Positions 6,929 to 30,403 of a stretch of DNA of 64,000 nucleotides are shown here, in pieces. This DNA comes from an archaeon. Lineage in GTDB: Archaea > Thermoproteota > Nitrososphaeria > Nitrososphaerales > UBA183. The notes under the pieces are model-generated. The model searched no databases and was not told where the DNA came from. It worked only from the letters and a program-made list of their open reading frames with translations. The stretch's first letter is position 1, and each line of letters begins with the position of its first letter. The position numbers were made by a program, and so were the translations under genes. The stretch is from positions 1 through 64,000 of the forward strand of contig JAKASI010000002.1 in the NCBI GenBank assembly GCA_021828185.1. Reading direction: 5' to 3'.

Positions 6929-7338
6929 CTATCGAAACCTCATTGGTAGGTATCATGTGTGCAGCGTCGAGGAACTAACAAGACTCCCAACAGTAAACCC
7001 ATGGTAAAACCAATGTGAGCCAGCGACCAAATCAAGCCATGTCTCGCCAAAGTCATCCTTTTGCATCTTCTCACTTCATAGCGATCTGGAACACCTGGCG
7101 GGCGTGGTCTTCGCAAATTCCGTTTATAACAACGCCCGAACACTGCGAAAGCGCCTCGAATTTGCACTTGGTCCAACGTGATTCGTGGTTATTTCCTGCT
7201 TCTCTTGGATTTGCTGACTTCAACGCGTGCGGGGGGGGGGTATGACATATTATACTCTGCTGTGAAACCACATAATGAATATCGAGAATTAGTTATGCGT
7301 CTTCTGTCGAGGCTCGTCAAGACGAGTCGCCGGCATTT
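6929..7338. other. Intergenic region upstream of integrase remnant
   Basis: No convincing gene was found. Short frames on both strands lack recognisable domains. A long G run occurs near 7230-7241. The end of the stretch leads into the tRNA-like attachment sequence. Confidence 0.45.
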
Positions 7339-7379
7339 AGGATTCGCTTAATTGTTTAATCAAATCCCTCCGGGCCCGC
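7339..7379 (+). other. tRNA-3'-end-like attachment site, left copy
   Basis: The 18 bases at 7362-7379 (AAATCCCTCCGGGCCCGC) look like the 3' half of a T-arm plus acceptor stem, as in archaeal tRNA-Arg genes, but the 5' half of the T-stem and the rest of a tRNA are missing. An ungapped comparison with 24281-24321 gives 34 identical bases of 41. The sequence overlaps the first codons of the integrase remnant, the arrangement expected for an SSV-type integrase whose attP lies inside its own gene. Confidence 0.55.
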
Positions 7380-8040
7380 TCGAGTTTCCGTACGGAACCA
7401 CTTCCCGCGTTGAATATACTGCATCGCTTCTTGGACGATTTGCAATCTTCAGGAGGGGTCAAGGTCCGAGGAAGCTCGAGCTGGCACACTCCCCCTACCG
7501 CCGCATGCTGGAGGAGGACGACAACTTCCGGAGGTGGGTGGAGTCGCTCGAGAGGGGGTCGGTGCTGACCGCCTCGGTCTACTTCAGGAGGATGGGGCGT
7601 TTGTGCGCGTCGATGAAGGTCACGCCGGCCGTTATAGCGGCGATGCCGGTGAAGGAGGGGGGGCGTTCATCCACGACCTGATCTCGTTCCTGGAGGGCTC
7701 CGGGAACGTGGGATCTACCATAGAGGGATGCGTCAAAGCCGTTCGGAATTGGATGACCTGGAACGACCTGCAGATACCGGGGAGGATCAAAGTGTTCGGT
7801 TCATCGGAGAACCCGACAGTGGAGGACGAGGTGACTCCCACGACGGGTTACGCGTATAAGGCGTTGAAGGAATGCCCTCGTTCGGTGTTGCTGCGTGCAG
7901 CCGATCTGCGAGTGGTGTGGCCAGCCGGCCGTCAGGCTGGACCCGACGCTCTGCGCCGAGCGCTACTACAAGTTCTGGTCGAGGTCCAAAGCGCCGCAAT
8001 CTCAAAGGGTCAACGGGACGGTCTACTCCGAATGAACTGA
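7352..8040 (+). pseudogene. Tyrosine integrase N-terminal fragment (SSV-type int remnant), frameshifted
   Basis: The first frame (7352 to about 7660) encodes a core-binding-domain sequence typical of archaeal integrases (DNFRRWVESLERGS, then TASVYFRRMGRLC). It then breaks at a G run near 7655-7668. The continuation in another frame (FIHDLISFLEG, TIEGCVKAVRNWM, then GRIKV) is the expected next part of the same domain. Beyond about 7840 similarity fades and no catalytic R-HxxR-Y set can be traced, so the gene is truncated as well as frameshifted. Its beginning lies inside the tRNA-like attachment sequence. It probably marks an old integration event rather than an active recombinase. Confidence 0.7.
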
Positions 8041-8160
8041 CAAGCGTGACTGTTCAGGTCCCGCCAGCAGCGCGGGGAGTTCGTAGCCCACGCCCTGTCA
8101 TGCGGTCGAGCGCGTAAAAGCCCCCCTGCTCCGGTTGGAGCGGCATAGAGGCGGTCGGGG

Positions 8161-8361
8161 GTGCAAAAAAGAGAGAAGGAGGGTGCGAGTGTTCCATGGG
8201 GGGTCGAACAGGAGATCAGGAGAGCAAGGAAAATCCCTGGCCTGATTTACGATGCCGGTGATTGGGGCAAGGAACCGTTGATCAGGGTCTTCGGCAGAGA
8301 CGCAATCGATGTGGCGCAGAAAATATCAACAATAGCTACGACCATCGGCAAGGGAAGATAA
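8161..8361 (+). CDS. Small hypothetical protein
   Basis: A 66-residue frame with a GTG start. The sequence has a plausible mix of charged and hydrophobic residues (for example DAGDWGKEPLIRVFGRD) but no recognised domain. It stands alone between the integrase remnant and pdxT, and could be a small accessory gene left from the same element or a chance frame. Confidence 0.3.
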   Translation: MQKREKEGASVPWGVEQEIRRARKIPGLIYDAGDWGKEPLIRVFGRDAIDVAQKISTIATTIGKGR

Positions 8362-25306: not shown

Positions 25307-27124
25307 CTAGGTGGGCTCTGACTTGGAGAGCAGATCCATCGCCCTCTCGTAGGCCCGGAGGACATCGGTCCTCGTTATTATTCCGACCAGCTTCCCTGAA
25401 TCCTTCGTCACCACCGGGAGCCTCCCGACCCCGTGGTTGATCATCGTCTCCATGACCCTGAACAGGGAGTCGTCCGCTTGGGCAACCAGCACGTTCTGGG
25501 TCATCACGTCCTTCAGGGAAGTGCTTGCCATCTTCTCCCGCGGGATTCTCTGCAGGTCGCTCACAGTGACTACCCCCACCACTTTGTCAGAGTCGACTAT
25601 CGGTATCCCCCGGAACCCCTTTTCGATGACAAGCTGGTACGCTGCCGCCACATTATCTGTGGGGGAGAGCGTGATCACCGCGTGGTTCATGGCATCGGAG
25701 ACGAACAACTTCGTGAGGAGGGGGACGTTGTACTCTCCCCTGTGGGCCGGGGAGTCTGCCCTCTTCAGCACCTGGCTCCTGTAGATGGTGTACTTCGGGG
25801 TGGTTACGAAGTAGGCGGCCACGACCGCGACCATGGAAGGAGCGAGGAGGTTGAGCGAGCCAGTCATTTCGCTCACCATGAGCATGACGGCGATGGGCGT
25901 CCTCCCCACCCCTCCGAAGAGCGCCATCATCCCGACCACAACCAGCGGGGCGGGGATGGGGATCCATCCTGGGAGGAGCTGGTTCACCACCATCCAGAAC
26001 GCAGCGCCCACGAACCCCCCGATGACAAGCGAAGGTGCGAACACCCCGGCGCTCCCGCCGGACCCGACTGTGAACCCGGTGGCGAGGATCTTGAGGAGGA
26101 TAACCGCGACCAGGACCGCGAAGAGCGGGAGCGAAACATAGTTCGTCGTGACCTGGGAGAAGTTCCCGTTGATCAGGGCCTGCAAGAAGCCGTACCCGAG
26201 TCCTATCACCTGCGGGAAGAAGATCCCGATGACCCCGGCGACGGCGGCGCCGAGCATAGGACGGGCGTACCGGGTCACTGGGAGTCCTGAGAACATCCTC
26301 TTCACTGAGTAGAAGGTCGTGGTATGGAGCCTCCCCACCAGCCCGCAGATGATCCCCAGCGCCGCGTAGATCAGCAGGTTCCTGGGTTGCGTGAAGGCGT
26401 AGGTCAGGCCGTTCCCGAAGATGGGGGTGAATCCGGCATAGGAGGCGAAGATGATGTACCCGATGGGGGACGCTATGAAAGAAGGGATCAACGCTTCGAC
26501 CTCGAAGTCTCCTCCGCTGTAGAGGATCTCCCCGGACAGGATTGCGCCTCCGAACGGGGACTTGAAAATGGAGCCGATCCCGGCCCCGATCCCCACCGCG
26601 ACGGCTATTCGCCTGTCTTTGACCGGCAGCTTCAGAAGGTCACCAATGAACGACCCGAAGCCCGCTGCGATCTGGGCGGTCGGACCTTCCCTTCCTCCGC
26701 TCCCGCCGGACCCGATGGTGAACGCAGACGCCAGGGCCTTCACCAGCGGTATCCTCTTCCTGATCTTCCCGTCCCGCCTGTGGAAGGCAGCGATGGCTTC
26801 GTCAGTCCCGTGCCCCTCGGCCTCCGGGGCGAAACGGTAGATGATGAACCCGGCTATCACCCCGCCGATGATGGTGGAGACAGGGATCAGGAGGAAGTTG
26901 GGAGCCACGGAGGCGGGGGCCGCCGCTTCGCCGGCGGGGTTCGGCGGATAGAACCCGGTTATCCCGCCAAGCATCACGTTGGTCACTGTCTGGATGGCGA
27001 AGTAGAATGCGACCGCACCCACCCCTGCGATGGTCCCGATCAGGATGCCGACGACGACCCATTTGGCAAGGTATCCCTGTTGTATTAACCGGTTGACTCT
27101 CGTCCCAATGGCGGAACCGCTCAA
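25307..27124 (-). CDS. ClC-family chloride channel/antiporter with CBS pair
   Basis: A 605-residue membrane protein. The ion-filter segments are recognisable: GSGGSGGREGP (138-148), with the gating-type glutamate at 146, and GSGGSAGVFAPSL in the second half; the first serine-filter position is changed from the usual GSGxP. About ten helices are followed by two CBS modules (roughly 470-600, VSDAMNHAVITLSPTD and LKDVMTQNVLVAQADD), which usually bind adenine nucleotides and gate transport. It follows two ferredoxin genes in the same direction. Whether it moves chloride, nitrate or another anion is not clear. Confidence 0.92.
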   Translation of the reverse strand: MSGSAIGTRVNRLIQQGYLAKWVVVGILIGTIAGVGAVAFYFAIQTVTNVMLGGITGFYPPNPAGEAAAPASVAPNFLLIPVSTIIGGVIAGFIIYRFAPEAEGHGTDEAIAAFHRRDGKIRKRIPLVKALASAFTIGSGGSGGREGPTAQIAAGFGSFIGDLLKLPVKDRRIAVAVGIGAGIGSIFKSPFGGAILSGEILYSGGDFEVEALIPSFIASPIGYIIFASYAGFTPIFGNGLTYAFTQPRNLLIYAALGIICGLVGRLHTTTFYSVKRMFSGLPVTRYARPMLGAAVAGVIGIFFPQVIGLGYGFLQALINGNFSQVTTNYVSLPLFAVLVAVILLKILATGFTVGSGGSAGVFAPSLVIGGFVGAAFWMVVNQLLPGWIPIPAPLVVVGMMALFGGVGRTPIAVMLMVSEMTGSLNLLAPSMVAVVAAYFVTTPKYTIYRSQVLKRADSPAHRGEYNVPLLTKLFVSDAMNHAVITLSPTDNVAAAYQLVIEKGFRGIPIVDSDKVVGVVTVSDLQRIPREKMASTSLKDVMTQNVLVAQADDSLFRVMETMINHGVGRLPVVTKDSGKLVGIITRTDVLRAYERAMDLLSKSEPT

Positions 27125-27198
27125 AATTCGAAGATACCTGAGGCTCCCGCCAACGGCTCAAAAAGGTTCGCGACTGAATGTCTCGGGTCCGTCCTGCT

Positions 27199-27501
27199 TC
27201 AGCGTAGCAGGTCTTCGACGGATGGGTACCGTCTGGCGTCCCTGGCCCCGACCGTCACTCCGTTCTCCGCGCACTGTGCAACGCACGCCATGCACCCGAA
27301 GCAGAGCGCTTCGTTCAGCACTGTGCATCTTCCCCCCGAGTCGGTGCCGAAGACCCCGACCGGGCAGGTGGCAGCGCACTCCCCAACGCCGCTGCACGCG
27401 GTTACCTTCACGGAGTAGGAGTTCAGGGGGCACTCGATCAACTGAGACCTGGCTGCCAGTCCCTCCAGCAGGGTCGGCGTCCGCGGGTCGCGCCATCGCA
27501 T
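27199..27501 (-). CDS. Ferredoxin with two [4Fe-4S] cluster motifs
   Basis: A 100-residue protein. The first cluster motif is divergent (ACSGVGECAATCP) and the second regular (CFGCMACVAQC). The short N-terminal part includes a further Cys (IECPLNSYSV). The ATG at 27501 was chosen over the frame start at 27528 because it lies about 30 bases after a TATA-like CCTTATTAGG (27531-27540) and so suits a leaderless message. A palindrome at 27551-27568, matching one in the V4R/HTH promoter, lies just upstream. Expected role: electron transfer. Confidence 0.85.
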   Translation of the reverse strand: MRWRDPRTPTLLEGLAARSQLIECPLNSYSVKVTACSGVGECAATCPVGVFGTDSGGRCTVLNEALCFGCMACVAQCAENGVTVGARDARRYPSVEDLLR

Positions 27502-27530
27502 CAAGGCTGGACCCGACCGGACCGCCAACT

Positions 27531-27568
27531 CCTAATAAGGCGCCGGGGCGATTCTCAGAAATGAGAAG
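27531..27568 (-). promoter_or_regulatory. Promoter and operator of the 4Fe-4S ferredoxin gene
   Basis: CCTTATTAGG (27531-27540) acts as a TATA box. Ten bases upstream is ATTCTCA-GAAA-TGAGAAG (27551-27568), an inverted repeat with a 4-base spacer that nearly equals the perfect ATTCTCA-TAGG-TGAGAAT at 29836-29853. A site just upstream of the TATA box would suit an activator. Confidence 0.6.
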
Positions 27569-27570
27569 AC

Positions 27571-28092
27571 CTAGTTCCTTTCGATCTCTGCCGAAGCCGG
27601 CTCGGGCTTCCTTGGAGGCGTCCTTAGCTCCTTGGGCTTCTTCATCCCCCGCCACACCTGGCTCACTCCGCGCGCCTCGGTCATCGGCTTCCAATCCGAT
27701 ATCCCGGACCACATGCTGCTGATAGGGCGCTTGAGGTATTCTCTCGTATATTCAGAGAGCGGGTGCCATCTTCCGTCGTCGACCAGCCGCTCTCTCCTGA
27801 CTATGACCGGCCTGGGCCTTGCCGAAAGCGGCTTCGTCTCGTCCGGCAGAACCGAGACCGCGTTCGTGGGGCACTCCCTCACGCAGATCTGACATCCGGT
27901 GCACCTCTCCTGGTCTATCAGGTACGGCTTCTCCATCATCCATTCCCTCGGGGGGACTCCCCCCATCACTGCACCCCAGAACGTGGTATCGGTGGGTCTG
28001 GTAAACTCAATACAGGTGGAGGGGCAGAGGTCCATGCAGGCTCCGCAGTTCATGCACTTCGTTTCGTCGACGACGAACTTGAAGAGCCCCGT
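27571..28092 (-). CDS. Two-cluster ferredoxin-type subunit with C-terminal extension, probable ACG start
   Basis: The sequence carries CMNCGACMDLCP and, about 35 residues later, CTGCQICVRECP, both complete [4Fe-4S] motifs. A basic 75-residue C-terminal tail follows, rich in Trp and Pro. The only ATG (28053) would remove the first cysteine of the first cluster. The frame upstream, back to the preceding gene's stop, holds no ATG, GTG or TTG, but the codons ACG GGG CTC TTC AAG TTC give a typical ferredoxin opening after a GGGGAGAGGG site. A start at the ACG at 28092 is therefore proposed (173 residues). It lies 12 bases after the membrane-protein gene and is probably its redox partner. Confidence 0.78.
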   Translation of the reverse strand, partial: TGLFKFVVDETKCMNCGACMDLCPSTCIEFTRPTDTTFWGAVMGGVPPREWMMEKPYLIDQERCTGCQICVRECPTNAVSVLPDETKPLSARPRPVIVRRERLVDDGRWHPLSEYTREYLKRPISSMWSGISDWKPMTEARGVSQVWRGMKKPKELRTPPRKPEPASAEIERN

Positions 28093-28104
28093 AGTCCCTC
28101 TCCC

Positions 28105-28977
28105 CTATTGTATGTAGTTGACGCCCTCCCTTGCGGGAGGCGCCGCTTGCGTTGGACCGCTCGCAGTGTTCGAGCCGGGCCGAGACGTCGCCGGCTGCTC
28201 TGGATATGACCTGCCTGGGAGTCCAGCAGGCGAGACGGGCCCCTGGGCTTGAGTTATCTTCGGGGTCGGCTTGCCCATCCTCGAGTGCAGGATCGGGTGG
28301 GCCAGACCGAAGAGCCCGAGCACCCCGAGGGCGGTAAAGCACACATCGAAAGTCGCCATGGACAGGTCCACGTTGCTGAGGGAACTGAAGGTGTTCGAGA
28401 CGGAGTACCAGAATCCGCTCCCCGAGCTCACCCCTGCCGGGAGGGTGGCGAGCTGTAGCGGGCTCTCCGTGACGAATATGGTGCCGAAGATCCACAGAGC
28501 GGCGCCCCCGAAGACCAGGGCCGTCACCACTCTGAAGGCAGTTCTGCTCTCGTCTGCATCGACGTAGAGCTTGGTGACCAGCGCGGCCCCGAAGAGGACC
28601 ACCGAGACTGGCATGAAGGGCACTGCCATGGAGTAGTCCTGGAATGTCCCTGGGAAGAACACCATGAGGCCCATGACGAAGGCCATGAACATCAGGCCGT
28701 CCCTGAGCAGGACGTAGGTCAGCCACCAGATGTCGGCTCCGAGCCGTAGGGTGAACTTCTCAAGGGTCCGGAGGAAGTACCCCCTTGCAATCTGCAGGGA
28801 GAACGCCATGGCTGTGACGAAGACCATCGCCACGGCTATCGTGGTCTCGAGCCAGATCGATCCTCCAGAGACCAGGCCGCTCTGACTTAGCGCGAACGCC
28901 GGGGCCGAGTTGAGGAGGAGCGCCGATGCTGCGATTATGGTTCCAACAAGCTTTCCGCTTTTCTTTGGGAAGCTCAT
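28105..28977 (-). CDS. Multi-helix membrane protein, probable redox-complex subunit
   Basis: A 290-residue protein with an N-terminal signal-like helix (about 8-30) and five to six further helices up to about residue 235. A Pro/Gly/Ser-rich, probably disordered tail of some 55 residues ends the protein. No heme- or quinone-binding motif stands out, and I do not recognise the family. It is followed by two ferredoxins and a ClC channel in the same direction and is preceded by two palindromic operators (29017-29060). A membrane anchor for ferredoxin electron transfer is inference from this context. Confidence 0.6.
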   Translation of the reverse strand: MSFPKKSGKLVGTIIAASALLLNSAPAFALSQSGLVSGGSIWLETTIAVAMVFVTAMAFSLQIARGYFLRTLEKFTLRLGADIWWLTYVLLRDGLMFMAFVMGLMVFFPGTFQDYSMAVPFMPVSVVLFGAALVTKLYVDADESRTAFRVVTALVFGGAALWIFGTIFVTESPLQLATLPAGVSSGSGFWYSVSNTFSSLSNVDLSMATFDVCFTALGVLGLFGLAHPILHSRMGKPTPKITQAQGPVSPAGLPGRSYPEQPATSRPGSNTASGPTQAAPPAREGVNYIQ

Positions 28978-29016
28978 GCCAGGCGTTGAAGGCCGGGGGG
29001 GAGATAGGGGCGCTCC

Positions 29017-29060
29017 CTAATGTGTTAGGCTGCCGATGTAAGCGGCCGCTAACCAGTTAG
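29017..29060 (-). promoter_or_regulatory. Paired CTAA-N4-TTAG operators of the membrane-protein gene
   Basis: CTAATGTGTTAG (29017-29028) and CTAACCAGTTAG (29049-29060, extended to a 5+4+5 palindrome GCTAACCAGTTAGC) lie 32 bases apart centre to centre, close to three helical turns. A third member of the family, CTAACGGTTTAG, lies in the V4R promoter. They probably bind the adjacent HTH regulator. Confidence 0.6.
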
Positions 29061-29143
29061 CAACGCTCACGTGAAAATGCAGCCAGACGGACCCGCTATC
29101 TGCTATGGGAGTTGGAACTACCAGGCCAGAACTTCCGCGGTGC

Positions 29144-29788
29144 CTACTCTTCTTGGAACGGGACGCCCAGGGCGTTTGCCATGATCCGTCTTTCGGCGCT
29201 CCGGAGAATCTCGCTCAGGGTGGACGGCTTGATCCCTACGAGCTCGCTAAGGCCCGTGAGGCTGATTCTGCGCGGGAACTCGAAGTACCCCTGCGCGACT
29301 GCAGTCGCCATTATCTCCTTCTGTCTCCCGGTCAGGGTTGCCCTGCGCTCGAGAGGAGCCACGTCTTCAATGCGGGCTTCAATCCCTTCCTTCGAAAGCT
29401 TCGCCAAGATCTGTCTGAAATCGCTGGTCTTGCGTACGATGAACCTCCAAGACGACGGCTGGGCGTTGGAGTTGAGCGGACATTCCAGGCAGACTATCGC
29501 CGCGTCGCTGGATGTCCTGCAGATGGCCGGCCTGTCCAGGACCACCAGGAGAGGCGCGGTCTCTCCGACCCTCTCGCCCTCCACGACCTGCCTAACCCCT
29601 TCGGTCTTCCTTATCTCGGTGGTCGCGGCGCGGATCGACTGTTCGGTCCCCCTGAGCTCCAGCAGCAGCGTCATCCCCGTCTTGTTGAATGATTTGCAAT
29701 CAACGACGCTCAGTTTGGTGCCGTTCACCTTCGCGGCATTCTGCAGCTTGTTCTCCGCCCTTATCTGCAGAGCTATCTGTCTGAGCAT
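29144..29788 (-). CDS. Bat-type HTH-10 transcriptional regulator
   Basis: The C-terminal 60 residues read LTGRQKEIMATAVAQGYFEFP, RRISLTGLSELVG and IKPSTLSEILRSAERR, the HTH-10 domain of archaeal Bat-like activators. The first 150 residues form a sensor-like region with two cysteines close together (IVCLEC) and one in AICRTSS, possibly a redox or ligand switch. The ATG at 29788 fits a leaderless start about 30 bases after the TATA box at 29814-29823; the frame itself extends to a GTG at 29812. It is divergent from the V4R gene and is the likely reader of the palindromes in this region. Confidence 0.85.
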   Translation of the reverse strand: MLRQIALQIRAENKLQNAAKVNGTKLSVVDCKSFNKTGMTLLLELRGTEQSIRAATTEIRKTEGVRQVVEGERVGETAPLLVVLDRPAICRTSSDAAIVCLECPLNSNAQPSSWRFIVRKTSDFRQILAKLSKEGIEARIEDVAPLERRATLTGRQKEIMATAVAQGYFEFPRRISLTGLSELVGIKPSTLSEILRSAERRIMANALGVPFQEE

Positions 29789-29792
29789 CTCT

Positions 29793-29901
29793 GAACAGGT
29801 TAGGGTAGGCACGTTGTATATAACGCGGAAGCACGATTCTCATAGGTGAGAATGGTACCGTCGCCCGAGTCCCCCCCTAACGGTTTAGGGGACTGGCTTA
29901 A
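29793..29901. promoter_or_regulatory. Divergent HTH-10/V4R promoter region with three palindromes
   Basis: The leftward TATA box lies at 29814-29823 (TTATATACAA on the minus strand). Perfect palindromes are ATTCTCA-TAGG-TGAGAAT (29836-29853) and CCCCTAA-CGGT-TTAGGGG (29874-29891). An imperfect CTAACCTGTTCAG on the minus strand (29793-29805) overlaps the expected HTH start point. CTTAAC at 29898-29903 can serve as the rightward TATA box for the V4R gene, whose ATG is 25-30 bases downstream. Confidence 0.6.
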
Positions 29902-29926
29902 CCCATGCCCCTCCCTAATCGCGTCC

Positions 29927-30403
29927 ATGGCCCCAAAGGCACTGGAAACCCAAAGGACTGACGAGTCCTTCTGGAAGCAGTTCCCCACGATGACTGACTA
30001 CTTCGCTCCCGGGATCCTACCGCTTGTGAAGTACCTGGGGATCTCCTCGAAACAGCTCATGCACGAGCTTGGCGAGCAGATCGGCAAGGACGCCGCTACG
30101 AAGCTCTCCCACCTCACCGTCGAACAGATGATCGACGAGTTCGCGAACGTCTGGCGGGGGTACGGCATCGGCTCCCTAACTGTGGAGAGCAAAGACCCGC
30201 TCGTCCTGCAGATCTCGAACTGCACGGTCTGCGGTCAACTCCCGGGGACTGGCGAGATGTTCGAGTGCGCCTTCCACGAGGGGTTCTTCCAGGGGGCCCT
30301 GGCAACGAGACTCGGAAAGCCGGTCACCGTCCATCAAACGACCAACTACGAAGGGGAAGCCGGCACCTGGTGCAGGCGGCTGGTCGCAGACATGGCGAAG
30401 TGA
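29927..30403 (+). CDS. V4R-domain small-molecule-binding protein
   Basis: About 158 residues. The C-terminal half carries the V4R pattern: ISNCTVCGQLP, then MFECAFHEGFFQGALATRLG, and the EAGTWCRRLV end, with four cysteines and a histidine placed as in V4R/hydrocarbon-binding proteins. The ATG at 29927 is the last candidate before conserved sequence and lies 25-30 bases after CTTAAC, suiting a leaderless message. It is divergent from the HTH-10 gene, whose operators flank both promoters, so it may supply the ligand signal for that regulator. Ligand unknown. Confidence 0.75.
   Translation: MAPKALETQRTDESFWKQFPTMTDYFAPGILPLVKYLGISSKQLMHELGEQIGKDAATKLSHLTVEQMIDEFANVWRGYGIGSLTVESKDPLVLQISNCTVCGQLPGTGEMFECAFHEGFFQGALATRLGKPVTVHQTTNYEGEAGTWCRRLVADMAK

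Follow-up and report, generated by a model that had tools for sequence, protein, structure and literature searches.

A candidate redox regulon around a membrane protein-ferredoxin gene pair conserved in two archaeal groups

We analyzed a 64-kb stretch of DNA (the window; positions 1 to 64,000 of contig JAKASI010000002.1, assembly GCA_021828185.1) from an archaeon of the Nitrososphaeria and inspected a six-gene module at 25307-30403. Judged by its matches, the DNA is nearest, among named sources, to metagenome-assembled genomes such as 'Nitrososphaerales archaeon A_CRE_07' and 'Thaumarchaeota archaeon REEA66'. By sequence comparison, the membrane protein encoded there, called TM, is a previously undescribed membrane protein family, and its gene is nearly always paired with that of a ferredoxin, Fd1, in both the Nitrososphaeria and the Micrarchaeota, two distant groups of archaea. 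In near relatives, a palindrome, CTAA-N4-TTAG, is common to the TM operon, the operons of the ferredoxin-reducing enzymes POR and OFOR, and genes of HTH_10-type regulators; these very probably make up a regulon. There is roughly an even chance that TM, Fd1 and a second ferredoxin, Fd2, serve a respiratory route that depends on ferredoxin as its membrane end, where electrons would pass from ferredoxin to the membrane.

The membrane protein family and its ferredoxins

An earlier sequence-only reading of this DNA had taken TM for a membrane protein of an unrecognized family, and database comparisons agreed. The window protein matched no Pfam or NCBIfam family at an E value of ≤1 and had no PHROG relative, and a profile of 108 aligned rows found no relative among PDB sequences at an E value of ≤10. 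No Pfam domain was present in its homologues in a protein collection (best 120 of 400) or in those from a search on the Micrarchaeota side (best 120 of 200). The named sources among the homologues listed were Thaumarchaeota/Nitrososphaerota, Micrarchaeota/Micrarchaeales and one labelled Marsarchaeota. TM did not match the complex I membrane subunit models of Pfam and NCBIfam. The Pfam NrfD-type model was matched neither by the window protein (E ≤ 1) nor in the families listed for the 108 members (E ≤ 0.05). Pox_I5, DUF2157 and other Pfam matches of individual members were discarded because they look like chance (best E value, 0.0019; at most 5 of the 108 members).

TM has a signal-like N terminus and about five transmembrane helices. 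In the AF2 model, a signal-like helix at the N terminus is accompanied by five more long helices, and the helical core is modelled with confidence (mean pLDDT, 80.6). The matches in two fold searches were general helix bundles, and NrfD/PsrC and Nuo chains were not among the 50 listed in either search. Twelve residues were invariant in the 108 rows (Q62, R65, Y67, F68, R70, K74, F75, T76, R78, A81, D82 and W85). They lie in the best-kept stretch, QxxRxYFxRxLxKFTLRxxADxWW (residues 62 to 85), which is basic, is located between the first two transmembrane helices and is predicted to be cytoplasmic by the positive-inside rule. No His or Cys was conserved among the aligned rows, and there is therefore no sign of a TM-bound haem or Fe-S cluster.

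The family was rare in the phylum of the carrier genome G004 (1 of 398 whole genomes). It was found in 12 of 300 genomes drawn from the order of G004, one of them (G518) with a weak partial match, and in 62 of 164 genomes from the order to which the Micrarchaeota genome G005 belongs. We compared 11 Nitrososphaeria loci (L001 to L004 and L031 to L037) and 54 Micrarchaeota loci; the latter represent 53 of the 62 Micrarchaeota carriers. Fd1 directly followed TM in all 11 Nitrososphaeria loci. In the Micrarchaeota, it was the next called open reading frame (ORF) after TM in 51 of the 54 loci and stood beside TM in 52; one small ORF separates the two genes in L062. Seven of the 54 loci had two TM copies in tandem before Fd1. 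The two loci lacking Fd1, L049 and L050, both have divergent TM paralogues (7320-7997 and 7634-8290, respectively), which adjoin two recurrent predicted secreted proteins; a YHS copper-type P-ATPase is near the paralogue of L050. In 12 of the 54 loci, a gene for a conserved protein about 140 aa long lies near TM-Fd1, on one side or the other (e.g., L045 6287-6709); the copy scanned had no NCBIfam match. At the TM-Fd1 junction of the window, L001 and L004, a TAG codon is followed by a 12-nt in-frame spacer. A fusion of the two proteins by stop codon read-through was rejected, as the spacer measures 13 nt and 10 nt in L002 and L003, respectively; given this variation, a ribosome-binding site is the better explanation for the shared letters. 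The pair was unnamed in the parts of the literature found by a search limited to open-licence papers.

All six genes that had been proposed for the module were found in place. Leftwards from 29812, HTH10, TM, Fd1, Fd2 and ClC follow one another on the minus strand, with V4R on the plus strand. Of the divergent arrangement proposed for the regulators, the part concerning V4R and HTH10 stood, but HTH10 is not divergent from TM, since both run in the same direction. The features are as follows.

28105..28977, minus strand: TM, membrane protein of 290 aa, without family match
27571..28092, minus strand: Fd1, two-cluster [4Fe-4S] ferredoxin with an FTRP loop and a conserved C-terminal tail; Fer4 families over cut-off
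27199..27528, minus strand: Fd2, small ferredoxin; Fer4 families
25307..27124, minus strand: ClC-type chloride channel/exchanger with two CBS stretches; PF00654 and PF00571
29144..29788, minus strand: HTH10, HTH_10 regulator; PF04967
29927..30403, plus strand: V4R, cysteine-rich V4R protein with an MsvR-like sensor domain, divergent from HTH10; PF02830
28998..29030, minus strand: conserved TM promoter block CTAAN4TTAGGGA-N8/9-CTATCT, found by eye in the window and five relatives
29017..29028, no strand: putative operator CTAATGTGTTAG, 39 nt 5' of the TM start; exact pattern match
29049..29060, no strand: second putative TM-upstream operator, CTAACCAGTTAG; exact pattern match
29877..29888, no strand: putative operator CTAACGGTTTAG in the HTH10/V4R interval; exact pattern match
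29834..29855, no strand: second, imperfect palindrome ATTCTCA..TGAGAAT, just upstream of a TATA-like box of HTH10; by eye

Fd1 has two C-x2-C-x2-C-x3-C-P motifs, and all 21 aligned sequences keep their eight cysteines; by these motifs it is a 2[4Fe-4S] ferredoxin. Its first ATG is at 28053. Because a protein starting there would be missing the first cluster cysteine, its start was placed further 5', where an ACG codon (28090-28092) aligns with the ATG, TTG or GTG starts of Fd1 relatives; this ACG appears to be either a rare start codon or a sequence error. Read from the first ATG, Fd1 scored below the cut-off of the NCBIfam NuoI model (32.1 of 113.05 bits). Weak NuoI matches in six carrier loci fell on Fd1 itself and were excluded from the counts. 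In the second ferredoxin, Fd2, the first motif is C-x5-C-x3-C, with the second cysteine replaced in all nine rows (by V, I, D, N, S or K) of an alignment from which a tenth, L031, was left out for a coordinate slip of two residues; the second motif is C-x2-C-x2-C-x3-C, and C68 is conserved besides. A passage of PMC2946596 gives replacement of the second cysteine of motif I as the mark of a [3Fe-4S] cluster. Fd2 is thus predicted to be a [3Fe-4S][4Fe-4S] protein by the rule for archaeal 7Fe ferredoxins.

The gene order had been expected to recur in related genomes, and it did so in the Nitrososphaeria, where relatives of Fd2 were present in 9 of the 11 loci and those of HTH10 in 7; for V4R, a direct search found relatives in 4 loci and clustering found them in 8. 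L034, L035 and L037, with a TM identity of 59 to 62%, have TM, Fd1 and then a further gene, c18; Fd2 and V4R come next, in variable order, and HTH10 is nearby. The c18 gene lies directly after Fd1 (L034 10822-11337, L035 7600-8046 and L037 8537-9061); two copies were scanned, and neither matched a Pfam family. The L033 locus carries V4R upstream and, on the opposite strand, Fd2 downstream. HTH10 is not adjacent in L002, where the upstream protein has SufR/ArsR-type matches below cut-off. None of the 54 Micrarchaeota loci had a relative of Fd2, HTH10, V4R or ClC at an E value of ≤1e-5. By eye, intein-like inserts were seen in L004 3-2834 (MCM) and L001 1-1683 (Hel308); the window copies have no insert.

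A palindrome shared with ferredoxin-reducing enzymes

The sequence-only reading had also proposed that shared palindromes link the promoters of the module. The pattern CTAANNNNTTAG had three exact matches in the 64 kb, at 29017-29028, 29049-29060 and 29877-29888, all within the module's two promoter regions. The expectation from dinucleotide shuffles was 0.12 ± 0.33, and 0 of 100 shuffles reached three. The proposed link is thereby supported. With one mismatch allowed, the number of matches in the window was not above chance (6 versus 6.96). The TM-proximal copy is contained in the conserved promoter block and ends 38 to 40 nt 5' of TM in the window, L001, L002, L004, L031 and L032. L032 has two palindromes upstream of TM, like the window. 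A copy in the HTH10/V4R interval was also found in L001, L004, L031 and L032; the right half of the imperfect palindrome, GGRAATCGT, was kept in the same four loci (by eye). Copies lie near TM, HTH10 or V4R in L034, L035 and L037, and none was seen in the L003, L033 and L036 loci as read.

The pattern was then followed across five carrier genomes, G001, G002, G004, G465 and G482, with the reversed pattern as the control. CTAANNNNTTAGGG gave 56 strand matches, versus 6 for the control. Merging by hand left 43 unique sites, and the surroundings of all 43 were read; ten target products, with one or two from each type of target, were checked against Pfam, and the remainder were assigned by similarity. 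The palindrome preceded TM at six sites, covering all five genomes, and lay in the HTH10/V4R interval at four. HTH10 genes elsewhere accounted for three sites (two in G002, one of them with a ClC gene behind, and one in G482). Seven sites preceded operons of ferredoxin-reducing enzymes: four were those of POR gamma-delta (PF01558 with Fer4) and alpha (PF01855 and PF17147), and three were OFOR/Kor operons. In all four POR operons, the palindrome ended 3 nt before the start codon, and this abutting position fits a repressor. Since POR/OFOR and TM-Fd1-Fd2 share the palindrome, they can be read as one redox regulon, which would couple the ferredoxin-reducing enzymes to TM-Fd1-Fd2. Single sites preceded a peroxiredoxin gene in G002 (PF00578; ending 1 nt before the start), a gene for a Tat-signal [2Fe-2S] protein in G002, a COX2-like gene in G465 (CuA motif, by eye) and an A-type Fe-S assembly gene in G482; one site was 267 nt from the called start of a DsrE gene in G001. 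The remaining 18 of the 43 sites had no assignment, and two of these, in G001 and G004, lie before genes for secreted proteins that are related to each other. A CopA-type ATPase was rejected as a target in G004, as the palindrome precedes a neighbouring secreted protein instead (53 nt).

Among more distant carriers, the pattern was enriched over the reversed control in G458 (12 versus 3), little enriched in G433 (4 versus 2) and G438 (12 versus 8), and not enriched in G426 (3 versus 6) and G443 (2 versus 20). G003 had 2 matches versus 0, and four genomes without TM had 1, 1, 0 and 3 versus 0, 3, 3 and 4. In G433, a palindrome lies about 80 nt before Kor delta. Copies also precede radical SAM genes in G458 and G438, which may function in the haem pathway. 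Such targets, together with the A-type Fe-S assembly gene of G482, would suit a different role, in which TM anchors Fd1 at the membrane and Fd1 supplies electrons to an enzyme of biosynthesis or repair (such as one for lipid saturation or for Fe-S or haem work). However, no such enzyme stood out as recurrent among the clustered neighbours in the 54 Micrarchaeota loci, and co-regulation with POR/OFOR indicates central electron flow; we regard this role as quite unlikely. Related radical SAM-like genes, recognized by eye, lie near the palindrome in three genomes (L201 2733-3830, L202 3732-4817 and L150 3725-4816), with one intervening gene in L150.

HTH10 belongs to the HTH_10/Bat type (PF04967, 62.6 bits versus a cut-off of 23.1). 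Its first ORF start is a GTG at 29812, and relatives begin at MLRQ, corresponding to 29788; C39, C98, C108 and C111, numbered from the 29812 start, were invariant in all seven sequences. Its genes had a palindrome within about 90 nt upstream in the window, G001, G002 (two genes), G003, G004, G458, G443, G465 and G482 (two genes). In G003, a divergent HTH10/V4R pair lies away from TM, with the palindrome between the two genes or at the V4R start. Because a site before the gene of its own regulator is the usual mark of autoregulation, HTH10 is the best candidate for the palindrome-binding protein. V4R matched PF02830 just below cut-off (E value, 2e-6) and the MsvR model NF053755 over stretch 122-226 of 236 with an E value of 3.7e-20, also below cut-off (72.6 of 220 bits); the V4R protein of L037 likewise matches the sensor half of MsvR below cut-off. 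C114 and C149 were invariant in 9 of 9 rows. Pfam and NCBIfam scans matched no DNA-binding (HTH) domain in the window protein. In Methanosarcina MsvR, V4R cysteines modulate redox-sensitive DNA binding, according to PMC3729527. The redox-type regulatory pair proposed earlier was supported, an MsvR-like V4R protein and HTH10 both carrying conserved cysteines. Of the ligand or redox response suggested in the sequence-only reading, these cysteines favour the redox one. Owing to them and to the MsvR-type sensor domain, oxidation state is likely to be the signal sensed. HTH10 would bind the palindrome and regulate its own gene, while V4R, as a separate sensor, would respond to the oxidation state.

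Respiratory links and the possible role of TM-Fd1

How aerobic archaea reoxidize ferredoxin that their 2-oxoacid oxidoreductases have reduced is described as unresolved for thermoacidophiles (PMC2946596) and haloarchaea (PMC8305020). Respiratory genes neighboured TM-Fd1 in 6 of the 65 loci, a link that is suggestive rather than strong. In G753, TM-Fd1 closes a nuoHIJKLMN operon (50 nt between NuoN and TM), with nuoABCD converging on it, and in G738, TM-Fd1 precedes nuoABC and nuoD; NuoA, NuoB and NuoC of G738 were scanned in Pfam, and the other nuo assignments were made by similarity or by eye. Cytochrome b is encoded within about 3 kb of TM-Fd1 in L037 and L051, NuoN near the TM locus of L066 and SdhA near that of L081. 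Fd1 was also considered as a missing NuoI and rejected, because the G753 operon has a separate NuoI-like gene (by eye).

All 11 Nitrososphaeria carriers had COX1 and NuoH. Among the 164 genomes of the Micrarchaeota order, NuoH was found in 143, cydA in 53 and COX1 over cut-off in none. TM and cydA avoided each other (7 genomes with both, 55 with TM only, 46 with cydA only and 56 with neither; Fisher P = 5e-6, uncorrected for descent). Cytochrome b, counting any match, was less frequent than expected with TM (10 of 62 carriers versus 39 of 102 genomes without TM; P = 0.003), and its strong matches showed no association (4 of 62 versus 4 of 102). TM and NuoH did not co-occur preferentially: NuoH was present in 55 of 62 genomes with TM and in 88 of 102 genomes lacking it (Fisher P = 0.81).

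The last result bears on a possible function of TM-Fd1 as an accessory input arm that tethers ferredoxin for a complex I lacking NuoEFG and reduces no quinone itself. The two nuo operons and the frequency of NuoH in carriers of both groups are in its favour, and nuoEFG is missing from the Micrarchaeota NADH dehydrogenase according to PMC5864196. Nevertheless, complex I does not need TM, because NuoH is just as common without it, and the flanks of most carrier loci had no nuo gene found. We consider the input arm unlikely. The avoidance of cydA and the lack of COX1 over cut-off in the Micrarchaeota order would instead suit TM-Fd1 working in reverse, as a quinol-oxidizing end module that feeds a soluble acceptor and substitutes for a terminal oxidase. 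That association disregards descent, however, the metagenome-assembled genomes are incomplete, and every Nitrososphaeria carrier has COX1. Moreover, the potential of ferredoxin clusters normally lies too low for them to accept electrons from quinol. The reverse direction is accordingly very unlikely.

We therefore return to TM-Fd1-Fd2 as the membrane end of a ferredoxin-dependent route. POR/OFOR would reduce Fd2, the predicted soluble 7Fe protein, and Fd2 would pass electrons to Fd1. The latter may dock on the basic cytoplasmic patch of TM, QxxRxYFxRxLxKFTLRxxAD. TM, without cofactor ligands of its own, would hold quinone, and TM-Fd1 would act as a small ferredoxin:quinone oxidoreductase or deliver electrons to complex I; we infer both the electron-transfer step and its acceptor. 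A more far-reaching version is tentative and, in our view, somewhat doubtful: TM-Fd1 might be a new, minimal ferredoxin:quinone oxidoreductase of the membrane that has no relation to complex I, Rnf or the NrfD type, providing the exit of POR/OFOR ferredoxin into respiration in some aerobic archaea and a minimal chain in Micrarchaeota without cytochrome bd, with an HTH_10/V4R cysteine switch controlling both electron entry and exit.

The sequence-only reading had further coupled this electron flow to anion movement. The ClC protein itself is well supported (PF00654, E value of 1.5e-85 and 287.9 bits; the CBS family PF00571, E value of 2.5e-30 and 105 bits; both over cut-off). It follows Fd2 in the window and L004, and in G002 a ClC gene shares an operon with a palindrome-bearing HTH10 paralogue. 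These are the observations in favour of a single complex whose ferredoxin electron flow would drive or gate the movement of anions by ClC. However, ClC was near TM in only 2 of the 11 Nitrososphaeria loci (L004, arranged as in the window, and L032, whose ClC differs and lies on the opposite strand; L001 ends before that place) and in none of the 54 Micrarchaeota loci. The G002 operon points to co-regulation rather than a shared complex, and co-regulation suffices for the remaining evidence. The coupling was thus not upheld, and such a complex is highly improbable.

TM-Fd1 offers a two-gene candidate for the ferredoxin reoxidation route in aerobic archaea, together with a palindrome to test. 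The regulon would tie both ends of ferredoxin electron flow, the entry through POR/OFOR and the exit through TM-Fd1-Fd2. A conserved membrane family without annotation is also added to the bioenergetics of Micrarchaeota and of one branch of Nitrososphaeria.

Comparison with known systems

The proposed function resembles that of a ferredoxin-accepting complex I without NuoEFG, of the photosynthetic NDH-1 type and as suggested for haloarchaeal Nuo, which is membrane bound, leads from Fe-S clusters to quinone and is thought to be fed by ferredoxin. TM-Fd1 even lies inside the nuo operons of two Micrarchaeota, but TM matched no Nuo family in Pfam and NCBIfam, and Fd1 is separate from the NuoI of G753. 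In NrfD/PsrC, a cofactor-free membrane subunit of eight helices is paired with a multi-cluster Fe-S protein of the NrfC/PsrB type. TM-Fd1 is similar in combining a ligand-free helix bundle with a multi-cluster Fe-S partner, whereas TM had no such Pfam match and has about five helices; the tandem TM copies in Micrarchaeota are suggestive only in this respect.

Fd2 is like the archaeal 7Fe (zinc-containing) ferredoxins that serve 2-oxoacid:ferredoxin oxidoreductases in the replaced second cysteine of motif I and differs from them by the additional conserved C68. The V4R protein shares a V4R domain with conserved cysteines with the MsvR regulators of methanogens, and PMC3729527 describes an inverted repeat with a 4-nt spacer, autoregulation and a link to oxidative stress genes, all similar to this module. 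Unlike MsvR, the window V4R protein scores below the MsvR cut-off and has no detected DNA-binding domain, and the sites differ, TTCGTA-N4-TACGAA being that of MsvR and CTAA-N4-TTAG that of the module.

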